From an uncultured Sphingorhabdus sp. (lineage in GTDB: Bacteria > Pseudomonadota > Alphaproteobacteria > Sphingomonadales > Sphingomonadaceae), in the NCBI GenBank assembly GCA_947492905.1, contig CANLOL010000001.1, positions 412,578 through 476,577 of the forward strand: 64,000 nt of DNA, read 5' to 3'. The first letter of the stretch is position 1. Every line of letters begins with the position of its first letter. Shown here one piece after another: positions 7,427 through 51,077 of this stretch. The notes under the pieces are model-generated. The model saw only the letters and a list, made by a program, of their open reading frames with translations, was not told where the DNA came from and made no database searches. A program made the position numbers and the translations under genes.

Positions 7427-7567
7427 TTTGGTCTCCTTTAAAAGTTACCGTTAACGGACGCTGGTGGCAGCCCACACTGGCCAGAGCATCACTAGGAACA
7501 TGCGCTATTAAAGGGATTCGTAAATATTGCAAGCAAATATCTATTGAAGAGGCCCGTAAAGACAGGC

Positions 7568-8131: not shown

Positions 8132-8737
8132 TTAAAATGGCTCAATTGGGAAATCAGGCGGAAAAAACACCCCTTTAATACATTGAACATTCCTTACAGC
8201 TATTTGAACGTGGCTTTTTTCATATATGTCACTGCCCTCATAAACTGGATCGCCTTCGACAAACATTCCGCGCACTGTATCATATGCATCGAAACCAAGT
8301 CCGCTCTTAATTCTCATCTCAATTATCTTATGCAAATGTCTAAAAACAGCACAGTCCAAATAACGCAATACACGGTCTTCGTTGTTGTCTCCACTTGGGT
8401 TTTTATTTTCCGGAATCGGTAAACCCGATTTTTCCTGTATATCAATAAATGAATGGTATGCGTATTGAAGTACTTCAACATCTTCGCGATTTGTTAGATC
8501 AAGGCAATGTTTTAAATCAATAACCGCACCAATTACAGAAGGCTCATTGTAATCTTTCCAACGAGCCCATTCTAATGCGCGCAGAGGATCTGCCTCCCAA
8601 AAATAAGCTCCTGGGCCAAGCCAATCATAATCTCTATCACTTTGTATAATTTCAGCGCCATCTAGAACAGCTTTTTTAGCAACTGATTTATCACAGCCAT
8701 GATAGCCAAGCACGAAGGATGTTGCTAATTGACTCAA
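8132..8737 (-). CDS. putative ADP-ribosyltransferase-fold protein
   Basis: A 201-aa soluble protein. The order of motifs fits the diphtheria-toxin/PARP-like ADP-ribosyltransferase fold: YHGCD near residue 12, the loop DYDWLGPGAYFWEADP at about 37-52 (compare the GxYF of PARPs), and a late segment EKSHVQIAVRN followed by an isoleucine-glycine turn. This gives a His-Tyr arrangement with an uncertain third residue. It starts at TTG, overlapping the stop of the upstream 56-aa gene as TTGA, so the two are translationally coupled. That arrangement suggests a toxin-antitoxin-like pair. The fold assignment is by motif order only; activity is unproven. Confidence 0.55.
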   Translation of the reverse strand: MSQLATSFVLGYHGCDKSVAKKAVLDGAEIIQSDRDYDWLGPGAYFWEADPLRALEWARWKDYNEPSVIGAVIDLKHCLDLTNREDVEVLQYAYHSFIDIQEKSGLPIPENKNPSGDNNEDRVLRYLDCAVFRHLHKIIEMRIKSGLGFDAYDTVRGMFVEGDPVYEGSDIYEKSHVQIAVRNVQCIKGVFFPPDFPIEPF

Positions 8738-8904
8738 GCAGCTGTTTTTTCTTTACCACCAAATTCAGGCATTAATTCTCCATTCTTAGAGTAAATGCCT
8801 TCATCAATCAGTGTTTTACGCGCAATCACCTCTGACACAGTTGCACGTTCCGTTTCTTCCTTGATTGCTTCAAGAATCTTTTTGTTACGCTCTGCATGAG
8901 TCAT
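8734..8904 (-). CDS. 56-aa protein coupled to the ART-like gene, candidate antitoxin
   Basis: This short gene starts at ATG 8902-8904 and ends at TGA 8734-8736, overlapping the TTG start of the next gene by two bases. It has a strong ribosome binding site (GGAAGGTGGTGA). The product begins MTHAERNKKI and continues with LEAIKEETERATVSEVIARK; the C-terminus is Lys/Ala rich. It is small, mostly helical and highly charged, like many antitoxins. The coupled start of the larger protein is the main evidence of joint function. I do not recognise a family. Confidence 0.7.
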   Translation of the reverse strand: MTHAERNKKILEAIKEETERATVSEVIARKTLIDEGIYSKNGELMPEFGGKEKTAA

Positions 8905-9070: not shown

Positions 9071-9856
9071 TCAATGATGGCAAGCGAGGCCCTCCAAAAC
9101 ATCTTCTAATCGCGCGGGGTCGCCCACGGCAATCACATGGCCGCCGTCTTTTTCGCTGCCTTCGTGCAATGGTTCGCCATTCCAATCGCACATCAAACCG
9201 CCTGCGCCTTCGACAATTGGGATGAGCGCCGCCATATCATAGAGCTTCAAACCGCTCTCAACAACGATGTCGATATGCCCGCTAGCCAGCAGGGCATAAT
9301 TATAACAATCGCCGCCCCACACAACGCGCTTTGATGTTTTTTCCGCCAGCGCCATAAAATGCTGAGCGCTATGATCGTCAAAATATTGCGGTGCAGAGGA
9401 TGCCAAGACAGCATCGGAAAGTTCGCGGCATGGGCGTGTTTTTACGGGCGTACCATTAAGCGTCGTCTCGCGCCCCGTAACGCCCACCCAACGTTCACCC
9501 GCTATGCATTGATCGAGCACACCCATCACTGGCCAACCTTCATTCATGAGGGCGATCAGCGTGCCAAATATCGGGCGGCCCGCCATAAAACTGATCGTGC
9601 CATCGATAGGGTCAAGCACCCATGTGCGTTTGCTGTCTCCAGCTTTTACGCCAAATTCCTCGCCAATGATGGCGTCATGAGGGCATTCAGCATCCAATAT
9701 ATCGCGGATCGCTTGTTCGGCTGCGCGGTCGGCTTCGGTCACGGGCGATGCATCGCTTTTGGTTTCACTATCAAAGCTGCTACGAAAAAATGGACGAATG
9801 GCATGGCCAGCCGCATCGGCTAGACGCTCGGCTAATTTTATATCTTTTGGTGTCAT
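9071..9856 (-). CDS. hisN: histidinol-phosphatase, inositol monophosphatase family
   Basis: A 261-aa Mg-dependent phosphatase of the inositol monophosphatase fold, related to the HisN form that makes histidinol. Metal site motifs are present: GEEFG at residues 65-69 and the signature LDPIDGT at 81-87. A late YDMAALIPIVEGAGG carries the last acidic ligand. The ATG context (TTTTGGTGTCATGG on plus) was also used to recognise a broken 5' copy at 10748-10779. A monophosphatase acting on another sugar or inositol phosphate cannot be excluded. Confidence 0.85.
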   Translation of the reverse strand: MTPKDIKLAERLADAAGHAIRPFFRSSFDSETKSDASPVTEADRAAEQAIRDILDAECPHDAIIGEEFGVKAGDSKRTWVLDPIDGTISFMAGRPIFGTLIALMNEGWPVMGVLDQCIAGERWVGVTGRETTLNGTPVKTRPCRELSDAVLASSAPQYFDDHSAQHFMALAEKTSKRVVWGGDCYNYALLASGHIDIVVESGLKLYDMAALIPIVEGAGGLMCDWNGEPLHEGSEKDGGHVIAVGDPARLEDVLEGLACHH

Positions 9857-9912
9857 GGCTGTCTTTTATGACGGCTTATCATAGATTGCTAGCGGTTAAT
9901 TGCGCCAAAGCC

Positions 9913-10083
9913 TTATTCAAAAGCTGTTAATGCTCTTGCCTCATTAATGCTAATTTCACATCCTACGCGGAAATCGAGATTTTCAAATGGAGAGGAGAGG
10001 CCCTGCGCGTGGCCACATCTTTTTACCAAATAGTTTAGAATATGTTTCGTCCGAATAGGCGATAGACATTTATGAAGGTTCAT
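9913..10083 (-). pseudogene. internally deleted arylamine N-acetyltransferase remnant
   Basis: A 56-codon open frame starts at ATG 10081-10083. Its first part matches the N-terminus of the intact nat gene at 11159-11953. It has M-N-L at the start, then GHAQGLSSPFENLDFRVG and EIS, against GHRLSIPFENLDVRLG and GIS in the intact gene. It then jumps to the C-terminus, ALTAFE-stop against ALNAFE-stop. About 200 residues, including the catalytic Cys, His and Asp, are missing. The shared bases continue past the stop (CCTTATTCAAAAG). It is a decayed nat copy lying directly upstream of hisN. Confidence 0.85.
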
Positions 10084-10148
10084 ATCGATTCGATTAAATT
10101 ACTCCTGTTAAATATTCTACATGTTTAGGCTTCAATAATGCTACGCTT

Positions 10149-10192
10149 ATTACAATTAGAAAAGTTGTAATTTTTATTATAATATTACAACT
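10149..10192. promoter_or_regulatory. alternating ATTACAA / TTGTAAT inverted repeats
   Basis: ATTACAA at 10149, TTGTAAT at 10165 and ATTACAA at 10184 alternate, so two mutually exclusive hairpins or a set of operator half-sites can form. The longer pair AGTTGTAAT and ATTACAACT has 9-bp arms. It lies 60-100 bp upstream of the TPR gene in very AT-rich DNA. The rest of the 9857-10251 intergenic stretch holds only the nat remnant. Confidence 0.45.
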
Positions 10193-10251
10193 ATAATAAA
10201 ATTTGACTATTATATTAATTTAAATTAGCCTTAACATAATTAAAGGAGAGT

Positions 10252-10701
10252 ATGATGGTATTAAAAACAAAAATCTTCACATTAGTGTCCGCTTCTGCCG
10301 TTTTATTATCAGGCACACATTTGTCGGCACAATCCTTCAGCCCAAACCCTGCTGCCGCTCAAACCAGCATTGGGGTCCCTGGAGCAAGTGGGAAATCTCC
10401 TTTCTCAACTCCAACAATAGGCGCTAGCGACAGCCGAATTGTATCTAAGCTCTATAGAAATGCCAGAAGACATTTAAACAATGGGGATTATAATTTGGCC
10501 ATAGTAGATCTTGAAAAAGCACTTAGATTCGCTCCCCAAAATGCGCACCTCAATTACACTATAGGGGGTGCCTATTATGCGCTTAGTAATAATGATCGTG
10601 CGATTTCATTTTTAGAAAAAACGTTGGCATCCGATGTCGATCCAATTCCAGATAACCTTCGTACCATTGCACAAAAAATGTTAGCGGAAATTCAGACTTA
10701 A
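10252..10701 (+). CDS. secreted TPR-repeat protein
   Basis: A 149-aa protein with an N-terminal signal peptide ending near SGTHLSAQS (residues 20-28). After a low-complexity Ser/Pro/Ala stretch it has two tetratricopeptide units: YRNARRHLNNGDYNLAIVDLEKAL, then NAHLNYTIGGAYYALSNNDRAISFLEKTL. A good ribosome binding site (AAAGGAGAG) lies before ATGATG; either ATG may be used. TPR units mediate protein contacts, so this is probably a periplasmic adaptor. It is the only plus-strand gene between hisN and nat. It lies between decayed copies of prs and nat, so it appears to have been inserted into that junction. Confidence 0.75.
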   Translation: MMVLKTKIFTLVSASAVLLSGTHLSAQSFSPNPAAAQTSIGVPGASGKSPFSTPTIGASDSRIVSKLYRNARRHLNNGDYNLAIVDLEKALRFAPQNAHLNYTIGGAYYALSNNDRAISFLEKTLASDVDPIPDNLRTIAQKMLAEIQT

Positions 10702-10710
10702 ATAATGTGA

Positions 10711-10779
10711 ATCGAACTGACTCGATACACTGCTTTCATCGGCAAAGCGCTCGGCTAATTTTATATCTTTTGGTGTCAT
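10711..10779 (-). pseudogene. hisN start fused to prs end, relic of a duplication
   Basis: Reading on the minus strand from ATG 10777-10779, the first residues MTPKDIKLAER equal the start of hisN, then [10 protein letters not shown] equals the end of prs ([11 protein letters not shown]). At the DNA level 32 bases at 10748-10779 are identical to the hisN start, and 28 of 33 bases at 10711-10743 match the prs end at 11968-12000. The join is at CATCGGC, present in both parents. The prs stop codon has changed, so the frame runs on for a few codons. Confidence 0.85.
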
Positions 10780-10867
10780 AAAGCTTCATATATTGGTGCT
10801 TCGTGATTTCAGCAAATGGTTTCTGTAAAAAGCGAATAATTATCTAAGGTGATTGAGTTGCTTTCAT

Positions 10868-11107
10868 GCTTCGACAAGCTCAGCACGAACGGAGATTTTT
10901 TTGCGCAAATAGATTATAAAATTAAGTGATTGATGGGCTTTATGCTTCGACTAGCTCAGCACGAACGGTGATTTGTTTTGCGCAAACAGGTAATGAAATA
11001 AAGTGATTCATGCGATACATGCGATACATGCTTCGACAAGCTCAGCACGAACGGGGGGTTGTTACACCTAATGTGAAGTCCCGTTCGCCCTGAGCCTGTC
11101 GAAGGGT
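10868..11107. repeat. cluster of four GCTTCGAC...GAACGG repeat copies
   Basis: Three direct copies of the core GCTTCGACAAGCTCAGCACG ending in AACGG lie at 10868-10892, 10944-10968 and 11030-11054. A fourth, inverted copy lies at 11081-11107. The first two copies also share their downstream bases (TTTGCGCAAA and AGTGATT), giving a tandem unit of about 76-86 bp. A short ATGCGATAC tandem sits just before copy three. Copies three and four can form a long hairpin. The stretch 10702-11158 holds no intact gene, only these repeats and the hisN/prs relic. The same element is inserted in pheT. Confidence 0.85.
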
Positions 11108-11158
11108 GATCAATAATTGAGCATGATGGTTTTGCGAGATGTTTATGCAAGCAAGACC

Positions 11159-11953
11159 TTATTCAAAAGCATTTAATGCCTGCACATCATCCATGCCCAT
11201 ATCTATGCCAAAATGCTCGCGCAATGCGTTTTGCAATGCGGCTTCATTGGGCAATTTCTGCTCTTTATGCGTATCATCTATGGTGGTTTTCAGCATAGCA
11301 TTATTGAGATTTATCATGCCCTCTGGGGTGGAGATATTGACAATCACGCTGTGCAAAAATCGCGAAAGCGGCGATGTAGCTGTCCAATGGTTGGACATGG
11401 CCAAATCCAAATGCGCAACCTTATCAAGCGTGAAGCTAAATTCATTCTTAAATGCGCTTTGCCCGGCCAATTTAATTTGCAGCATCCAGCCATGGTCTGC
11501 ATCAATGACCAAGCGATGTTCGGCGCCATCTGCTCCCTTTACGCATGCGCCCTCATGCAGCGGCATGGGCGGACAATAACTGCTGCCGAAACCCGCATCA
11601 GCAATCCATTCATCGCCATTGATCGTCACCAAATTAAGCGTGTGCGTTTTGGGCGGTGTTTCAGTGGCAAACAACCAGACCCGCGCCAACAATGGGCGCA
11701 CATCAAATCCTATTTCGCGCAAAGCCCAGCGCAGCAGCGCATTATGTTCAAAGCAATATCCGCCGCGTTTTTTGGTGACGAGCTTATCAAATATCGCTTC
11801 ATCATCGACGCTAATACCGCGCCCCAAACGCACATCCAAATTCTCAAAGGGAATGGAAAGGCGATGCCCATGCTGAACATTGGCCAAATCTTCTACAGTA
11901 GCGCGGGGTTGATCCCCAATGCCGATACGAAAGAGATAATCCTTTAGATCCAT
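11159..11953 (-). CDS. nat: arylamine N-acetyltransferase
   Basis: A 264-aa cytoplasmic enzyme that moves an acetyl group from acetyl-CoA to arylamines or hydrazines through a cysteine intermediate. The catalytic triad is intact: Cys67 in RGGYCFEHN, His104 in THTLNLV and Asp119 in WIADAGFGS. The substrate-side motif IPFENLD lies at residues 34-40. The gene follows prs on the same strand with only 11 bp between, so it is probably co-transcribed with it. A deleted second copy lies at 9913-10083. Confidence 0.93.
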   Translation of the reverse strand: MDLKDYLFRIGIGDQPRATVEDLANVQHGHRLSIPFENLDVRLGRGISVDDEAIFDKLVTKKRGGYCFEHNALLRWALREIGFDVRPLLARVWLFATETPPKTHTLNLVTINGDEWIADAGFGSSYCPPMPLHEGACVKGADGAEHRLVIDADHGWMLQIKLAGQSAFKNEFSFTLDKVAHLDLAMSNHWTATSPLSRFLHSVIVNISTPEGMINLNNAMLKTTIDDTHKEQKLPNEAALQNALREHFGIDMGMDDVQALNAFE

Positions 11954-11964
11954 ATGCTAATCCA

Positions 11965-12900
11965 TCAATCAAATAGGCTCGATACGCTGCTTTCATCGGC
12001 GATACGGCGGATGGCTTCGCCCAATAAAGACGCCATCGGTAAGTGCCGAATATTATGCGCCGCTGCCACAGCTTCGGTGGGTTTAATACTGTCAGTAATA
12101 ACCAATTCTTTGAGCGATGAATTGGCCACCCGTTCGGCTGCGCTGCCCGATAAAACACCATGCGTACAATAGGCCACCACATCGGATGCGCCCTGCGCTC
12201 GCAGCGCATCAGCCGCATTGCACAATGTACCGCCGCTATCGACAATATCATCGATTAAGATGCAAAAACGGCCATCGACATCACCAATGATATTCATCAC
12301 TTCGGATTCGCCCGCTTTTTCACGGCGTTTATCCACGATAGCCAAGGGCGCATTATCAAGCCGCTTTGCCAAGGCACGGGCGCGCACAACGCCGCCAACA
12401 TCGGGTGAAATCACCATTAATTCTTGGCTGCCATAGCGCGACAATATATCCGCGCTCATCACGGGTGCGCCATAAAGATTATCGGTGGGAATATCAAAGA
12501 AACCTTGAATCTGCCCTGCATGCAGATCAACCGATAACACGCGATCCGCGCCTGCTTCGGTAATAAGATTGGCTACCAATTTAGCCGAAATAGGGGTACG
12601 CGGTCCGGGCTTTCGGTCTTGGCGCGCATAGCCAAAATAGGGAATGACTGCGGTAATGCGTTTGGCCGATGCACGTTTCAGCGCATCAATCATAATAAGC
12701 AATTCCATCAAATTATCATTGGCGGGATGATTGGTGGGTTGCACCACAAACACATCTTCGCCGCGCACATTTTCATGAATCTCGATAAAGATTTCATCAT
12801 CGGCAAAGCGGCGCACGCTTGCATTGGTAAGGGGTAATTCCAAATAGCCAGCAATGGCCCGAGCAAGCGGCAAATTACTATTGCCAGATACGATCTTCAT
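11965..12900 (-). CDS. prs: ribose-phosphate pyrophosphokinase
   Basis: Makes PRPP from ribose 5-phosphate and ATP, feeding purine, pyrimidine, histidine, tryptophan and NAD synthesis. The 311-aa length is normal. Key segments are present: [10 protein letters not shown] near the N-terminus, the flexible ATP loop [17 protein letters not shown], the metal-binding region [12 protein letters not shown], and the PRPP-binding loop [10 protein letters not shown]. It leads the prs-nat pair; the preceding 200 bp, divergent from nadE, must hold its promoter. A broken piece of its 3' end lies at 10711-10743. Confidence 0.97.
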
Positions 12901-19840: not shown

Positions 19841-19932
19841 GGACACGTGGGTGAGCGGCTGAAACCACCTCCTTGCTAAGGAGACAAGGGCCTCACGGTC
19901 CTTCGAGGGTTCGAATCCCTCCGTGTCCTCCA
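19841..19932 (+). tRNA. tRNA-Ser, anticodon GCU
   Basis: The acceptor stem GGACACG (19841-19847) pairs with CGTGTCC (19922-19928); CCA is encoded at 19930-19932. The anticodon loop TTGCTAA gives GCU, reading AGC and AGU codons. A long variable arm (AAGGGCCTCACGGTCCTT) identifies a serine class tRNA. The T arm is GAGGGTTCGAATCCCTC. The base before CCA is T, where bacterial tRNA-Ser usually has G. Confidence 0.95.
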
Positions 19933-19970
19933 TTTTCTATTTTATTGCAGCCTAAATTTTATAGGCTAAA

Positions 19971-49916: not shown

Positions 49917-51077
49917 ATGCATAATATTTATCCCTCTTGGCCGCATTTCACCGATGAGGAAGCCGATGCTGTTCACAATGTGATTGCATCGAACAAAGTT
50001 AATTATTGGACGGGGCAAATCGGCCGAGAATTTGAGCGCGAATATGCGGCTTGGGCCGATAGCAAGCGTGCGATAGCATTGGCCAATGGTACTTTGGCGC
50101 TTGATCTTGCCCTAAAAGCATTAGGCATAGGCAAAGGCGATGAAGTCATCGTCACGCCGCGCAGCTTTATAGCATCGGTATCCAGCGTGGTGACTGCGGG
50201 GGCGACCCCGATTTTTGCAGATGTGGATTATGACAGCGGCAATTTGAGTGTAGAGACGATAGCGCCCAAAATCACCAAAGCGACAAAAGCCATTATCCCT
50301 GTGCATTTGGGGGGCTGGCCCGCCGATATGCCAGCGATTATGCAATTGGCCAATGCGCATGATATTGCCGTAATAGAGGATTGCGCCCAAGCGCATGGTG
50401 CTAAAATCAATGGAAAATCCGTGGGCAGTTTTGGTCATGTTGGCGCTTGGTCATTTTGCCAAGATAAGATTATGACCACCGGCGGCGAAGGCGGCATGGT
50501 TACCACCCAAGACGAAGATTTATGGCAATATATGTGGTCCTATAAAGACCATGGCAAAAATTGGGATGCTGTTTACAATCAGCAGCATCCGCCCGGATTT
50601 CGGTTCGTACATGATAGCTTTGGCACCAATTGGCGCATGTTGGAAATGCAGTCCGCAATAGGGCGTATCCAATTACAGCGAATGGAGGGCTGGCGCGCGC
50701 GCCGCACAAAAAATGCCGCCATGATAGCGCAAGCCCTTGCGCCTTTTGATGCAATTATCCGCAGACCAAAACCCAATGATGGATTTGTGCATGCCTATTA
50801 TAAATATTATGCTTATGTGCGGCCTGAAACGTCTATTGACCGTGATGCATTAGTGTCCAAATTGATCGAAAATAATGTGCCTGTTATGCATGGCACATGT
50901 TCGGAAATTTATCTGGAAAAAGCTTTTGATAATACGCCATGGCGTCCAGAAACACGTTTGCCCATAGCAAAAGAATTGGGCGAAACCAGCATGATGTTCA
51001 TGGTGCATCCGACATTATTGGATGATGATATGGAAAAAATATGCGCCTCTATCACCGAAGTGATGAAGAGCATATAA
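49917..51077 (+). CDS. DegT/DnrJ/EryC1/StrS-type sugar aminotransferase
   Basis: A 386-aa PLP-dependent aminotransferase acting on nucleotide keto-sugars. It has YWTGQIGREFEREYA, ALANGTLALDLALKALGIGKGDEVIVTP, HLGGWPADMPAIM and IEDCAQAHGAKINGKSVGSFGHVGAWSFCQDKIMTTGGEGGM. In the last stretch the Lys of QDK is the PLP Schiff-base residue. The substrate may be a dTDP- or GDP/UDP-4-keto-6-deoxyhexose; the presence of rmlB nearby makes dTDP-4-keto-6-deoxyglucose possible. It is convergent with rmlA (8-bp gap). Confidence 0.9.
   Translation: MHNIYPSWPHFTDEEADAVHNVIASNKVNYWTGQIGREFEREYAAWADSKRAIALANGTLALDLALKALGIGKGDEVIVTPRSFIASVSSVVTAGATPIFADVDYDSGNLSVETIAPKITKATKAIIPVHLGGWPADMPAIMQLANAHDIAVIEDCAQAHGAKINGKSVGSFGHVGAWSFCQDKIMTTGGEGGMVTTQDEDLWQYMWSYKDHGKNWDAVYNQQHPPGFRFVHDSFGTNWRMLEMQSAIGRIQLQRMEGWRARRTKNAAMIAQALAPFDAIIRRPKPNDGFVHAYYKYYAYVRPETSIDRDALVSKLIENNVPVMHGTCSEIYLEKAFDNTPWRPETRLPIAKELGETSMMFMVHPTLLDDDMEKICASITEVMKSI

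Follow-up and report, generated by a model that had tools for sequence, protein, structure and literature searches.

Remnants of a second prs-nat-hisN copy, joined head to tail with the first, in a Sphingorhabdus genome

In the stretch of 64,000 nucleotides from an uncultured Sphingorhabdus sp. that was analyzed here (the window), intact prs, nat and hisN genes are accompanied by short pieces that resemble the same three genes. A first-pass annotation read positions 9857-12000 as the scar of an old tandem duplication. How did this arrangement arise, and are the two copies sisters? The feature itself is real. Its limits were drawn too narrowly, and the span 9071-12900 takes in the intact flanking genes. 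In the order of transcription of the minus strand the locus reads prs, nat1, a spacer, the start of hisN fused with pieces of prs, a reverse TPR gene, a nat2 remnant and hisN. The six prs, nat and hisN blocks annotated before are thus all present, although the fragment of the second prs had to be redrawn within a three-part chain and the reverse TPR gene added. The features are as follows.

11965-12900, minus strand: prs, ribose-phosphate diphosphokinase, intact (Pfam PF13793/PF14572; NCBIfam PRK01259, 491.6 bits)
12797-12804, minus strand: 8-bp repeat GCCGATGA inside intact prs; its counterpart in prs' is one border of an 804-bp deletion
11159-11953, minus strand: nat1, arylamine N-acetyltransferase-like, intact, copy 1 (PF00797, E = 3e-60)
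10780-11158, no strand: A-type nat-hisN spacer with REP-like repeats, 379 nt (alignment and genus-wide DNA search)
10748-10779, minus strand: hisN', hisN codons 1-11, the first 32 nt (32/32 identical to 9825-9856)
10736-10749, minus strand: 5' piece of prs', prs codons 31-34, CGCTTTGCCGATGA, 14 nt (exact match to 12797-12810)
10710-10743, minus strand: 3' piece of prs', prs codons 301-311 without the stop (28/34 identical to 11967-12000)
10252-10701, plus strand: reverse gene for a small TPR protein with a signal-peptide-like start (Pfam TPR_19; phmmer)
9913-10083, minus strand: nat2 remnant, about 50 N-terminal codons running in frame into the last codons
9857-9912, no strand: B-type nat-hisN spacer, 56 nt, as in G013 and G023 (alignment)
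9071-9856, minus strand: hisN, histidinol-phosphatase, intact (TIGR02067, 280.8 bits, above the cut-off of 275.15)

There is a single full copy of prs genome-wide (one match in G000; copy number by search).

The joint between hisN' and prs' is made of three maximal exact matches, in a search where the background of exact matches was 10 nt. Positions 10779-10748 equal the hisN start at 9856-9825 (32 nt), 10749-10736 equal prs at 12810-12797 (14 nt, codons 31-34) and 10743-10730 equal prs at 12000-11987 (14 nt). The similarities to the hisN start, the prs end and nat were each compared with 1000 dinucleotide-preserving shuffles. The 32-base link to the hisN start, already annotated, scores 32 against a shuffle mean of 9.5 and a maximum of 18. 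The link to the prs end was likewise recovered (10743-10710 against 12000-11967, 28/34 nt) and was reached by none of the 1000 shuffles. A virtual chain of hisN nucleotides 1-32, prs codons 31-34 and the prs C-terminus is identical to the observed sequence over its first 50 nt, and differs at seven of the last 23. hisN codon 11 passes in frame to prs codon 31 with a 2-nt overlap, CG, and the joint reads ATTAGCCGAGCGCTTTGCCGATGAAAG.

The first-pass annotation had placed the fusion at CATCGGC, where hisN copy 1 and prs copy 2 would have been brought together by a deletion. We have replaced this reading. The 14-nt match to prs codons 31-34 spans the gap between the piece of hisN and the prs tail, and the junction therefore does not lie at CATCGGC. 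Independently of the other two matches, it contributes only CTTT, for which the probability of a chance match is about 1 in 256. The four nucleotides are exactly explained by prs codons 31-34, while fusion at CATCGGC requires three substitutions within 4 nt (TCTA or TATC to CTTT) and none in the neighboring 46. CATCGGC is instead the point of a later deletion inside the second prs, and it was therefore the duplication breakpoint itself that produced the hisN-prs fusion.

prs' lacks 804 bp (268 codons), in frame, between two 8-bp GCCGATGA repeats. Intact prs has this sequence at 12797-12804 and 11993-12000; prs' has it once, at 10736-10743, where it is common to the 5' and 3' pieces. Deletion between short direct repeats starts from a parent with two repeats and leaves a product with one, and the loss from prs' is of this kind with no notable difference. 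The repeat is lacking in G011 and altered in G013, and prs' matches the prs of the window.

We find nat1 to be closer to the nat of G013 (81% amino acid identity) than to that of G011 (73%). The open frame at 10083-9913 does match the N-terminal and last codons of nat, as had been noted. None of 1000 shuffles reached its DNA score of 24.5 (nearest 24.0), and its core is matched by tblastn to the nat of G011 (E = 1.5e-6). The supposed loss of about 200 codons was also close, since about 205 are gone, including the catalytic Cys region. A search for other nat2 regions in the genus gave nothing above noise. Decay was compared at sites where the parent gene of the window, G011 and G013 agree, using the best-aligned nat2 core only. 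nat2 is changed at 17 of 69 sites conserved in the other nats, and the joint at 4 of 66 (Fisher p = 0.004). For this reason nat2 was probably already decaying, or different, at the time that the joint formed. In their patterns eight nat2 sites group with nat1, nine with G011 and one with G013.

The fused and deleted pieces have kept open frames, as first observed. The hisN'-prs' joint (10779-10681) has a frame of 32 codons, in frame with both parents, and nat2 has one of 56 codons. We saw no sign of function and no promoter excess for the former, and no family match or promoter excess for the latter. Keeping the frames amounts to three 1-in-3 chances, or about 1 in 27, and is not a strong hint of function.

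Among 44 other Sphingorhabdus genomes searched nat is present in three (G011, G013 and G023), once in each and before hisN, with no nat match in the remaining genus genomes. G011 and G013 have prs-nat-hisN once on a single contig, so that the expectation of relatives with this order alone was borne out twice; in G023 the contig ends inside the nat that precedes hisN. An ancestor with two full copies, the other form of support that had been proposed, was not found among the relatives. The order of hisN start followed by prs end occurs in no relative examined, and a second copy was seen in the window genome alone. A head-to-tail second copy is supported because this order is absent from the relatives and prs-nat-hisN is single in two of them. 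That the copies are sisters of one block is doubtful, given the differing spacers, the TPR gene and the decay of nat2. To this extent the proposal of a tandem duplication stands in part.

The interval between prs and hisN varies. In the 40 other genus genomes with both genes on one contig (by our count), they overlap or lie within 10 bp in 30 and are 80-92 bp apart in six; two have an interval of about 1 kb with a TPR gene, and two (G011 and G013) have nat. Blastomonas-like genomes also carry a nat in this interval (41-42% identical). Across sphingomonads the cargo of this interval is nothing, nat, TPR or other genes.

The top match of the TPR gene among 301 family genomes (31% identity, E = 1e-11, in G213) is itself a TPR gene in reverse orientation within a prs-hisN interval (L055). 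Similar reverse TPR genes were found between prs and hisN in L073, L076, L094, L040 and L041 using phmmer. This suggests that the gene in the window is the positional counterpart of the prs-hisN TPR genes of other sphingomonads, with orthology argued mainly from position because the identity is only about 30%. A random insertion of the TPR gene is disfavored; chance arrival here is unlikely because similar reverse genes occupy the same interval in other genera. From gene position, copy 2 would thus seem to hold an old form of the prs-hisN interval.

The two spacers differ in their affinities. The A-type spacer, between nat1 and hisN', has its counterpart in the nat-hisN spacer of G011, with about 130 of 139 nucleotides identical near the 3' end. 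It is far closer to G011 than is the adjoining nat (72% at the nucleotide level) or prs (84%). Without its REP core it is present, within 45 genus genomes, in this genome and G011 only. The B-type spacer preceding intact hisN has 37/56 and 38/56 nucleotides identical to G013 and G023 respectively. Three REP-like CTTCGACAAGCTCAGCACGAACGG copies lie in the nat1 spacer at 10852-11100, and their core is found at many sites in this genome, G011, G048 and G056. The A-type spacer was also considered as a dispersed repeat, but only the REP core is dispersed, the remainder being confined to this genome and G011.

In this region G011 and G013 share no more than about 72-93% identity with the window. Differences at four-fold sites between the window and G013 are even, at 34%, 36% and 36% for prs, nat1 and hisN. 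Against G011 they are uneven, at 53%, 49% and 25%. The prs-hisN region has therefore probably recombined between lineages. Moreover nat1 is nearer to G013, yet the spacer that follows it is G011-like, so that the donor is not any one of the species sampled.

The three-part joint, the remnants, and the two spacer types with their distribution are direct observations, and their history can be read in more than one way. To the reading that we prefer we give about an even chance. Two versions of the variable prs-hisN interval would have been joined in series by illegitimate recombination, and then eroded. Version 1 would be prs-nat1-A spacer-hisN, and version 2 prs-reverse TPR-nat2-B spacer-hisN, with hisN codon 11 of the former joined to prs codon 31 of the latter at the 2-nt overlap. 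The join was probably harmless because the outer prs and hisN stayed whole. The inner prs would afterwards have lost its 804 bp between the two GCCGATGA repeats; nat2 would have lost its 205 or so codons at some point. The copies would have differed before joining and, most simply, one would have come from a relative. A possible route is a homologous crossover in or upstream of prs together with illegitimate joining at the opposite end, the pattern of homology-facilitated illegitimate recombination (HFIR). Such a join explains 50 consecutive nucleotides as the start of hisN (1-32) followed by prs codons 31-34 and the C-terminal part of prs. It is also consistent with the G011-like A spacer and G013/G023-like B spacer, the position of the TPR gene, and the excess decay of nat2 over the joint, although the sites are few and decay rates may be unequal among segments. 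It sits less easily with nat1 being nearer to G013 than to G011 despite its G011-like spacer, with the 8:9:1 split of nat2 sites, and with the match of prs' to the prs of the window, including the GCCGATGA repeat.

A close rival, slightly less likely and somewhat short of an even chance, is plain tandem duplication in one genome of about 1.8 kb from prs codon 31 to hisN codon 11, which is the first-pass proposal with its joint shifted. It would have been followed by losses within prs' and nat2, the later arrival of the TPR gene in copy 2, and an exchange in which G011-like DNA took the place of the copy 1 spacer and of the hisN' start. The same joint is explained, the best match of prs' is the prs of the window, nat2 shares nat1-only sites by eight against two, and the even four-fold divergence from G013 (34, 36 and 36%) is as in inherited genes. 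The cost is extra events. A TPR gene must arrive at the same place and in the same orientation as in other genera, the spacer must be replaced, and nat2 must decay faster than the joint. We regard it as improbable that the duplication is old and goes back to a shared ancestor of the four genomes with nat, having survived in this one and collapsed independently in the other three, by hisN'-hisN recombination in G011 and through the prs or nat copies in G013 and G023. This would account for both spacer types being together here, but the joint agrees with its sources at 50 of 50 positions when four-fold differences between these species are 25-53%, and two or more independent clean collapses are required. 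That unrelated short homologies or an assembly error could be responsible is barely conceivable. The individual pieces are short, at 32-34 nt, but they form an ordered chain in which each is beyond 1000 shuffles. The contig is 2.36 Mb long, and this is not a misassembled repeat because the copies have diverged.

How does the preferred join in series compare with known rearrangements? Tandem duplications arise by illegitimate recombination, for example in Acinetobacter ADP1 and at S. pneumoniae patAB, with joints that share two or no bases (PMC4432121). The present locus likewise has head-to-tail copies, with intact outer genes and a novel joint that reverses the ancestral prs-hisN order and has little homology, the 2-nt overlap. 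Unlike those, it has an eroded inner copy, and its two copies find their matches in different related species. HFIR, which uses 3-10 bp, is documented in competent S. pneumoniae, A. baylyi and P. stutzeri (PMC6382021). A product like this is expected if incoming related DNA recombines at homology at one end and at a few bases at the other, but the overlap here is below 3-10 bp, and HFIR would be deduced from mosaic similarity alone. The variable cargo of the interval also resembles exchange between conserved flanking genes, except that here there are two cargos in series. It is possible, though on balance we doubt it, that the interval is a sphingomonad exchange site where nat, TPR and other genes are swapped via the conserved flanks. 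The two alleles in series would then reflect a lineage with a dead nat regaining a working one by an illegitimate join.

Duplications usually vanish without trace. Here the joint is still legible, as are the deletion with the repeats that bordered it and the species to which the pieces are closest, and the order of events can therefore be partly reconstructed. The scar is a well-preserved genome fossil of a known kind of rearrangement, instructive but ordinary, and it holds no new enzyme, regulator or system. It also warns that the remnants of a 'tandem duplication' are not necessarily sister copies.

Some neighboring features were observed. On the minus strand a 201-amino acid protein (8132-8737; GYHGC...WLGPGAYFWEADPLRALEWA) is overlapped by a 56-amino acid upstream partner (8734-8904), in a toxin-antitoxin-like arrangement. 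Neither has a Pfam match; the larger presumably resembles an ADP-ribosyltransferase-like toxin fold. G023 has both at the corresponding position (about 66% and 57%); the G011 locus examined has neither. A tRNA gene (19841-19929) borders a 30-kb stretch (about 19937-49986) missing at the matching place in G011, where similarity stops at 19937 and begins again at 49986; with G013 similarity extends to 31498. This stretch is a possible tRNA-linked variable region. Lastly, at 7440-7443 the window is about 110 bp shorter than G011, G013 and G023 alike, and therefore seems to have lost a short piece there.
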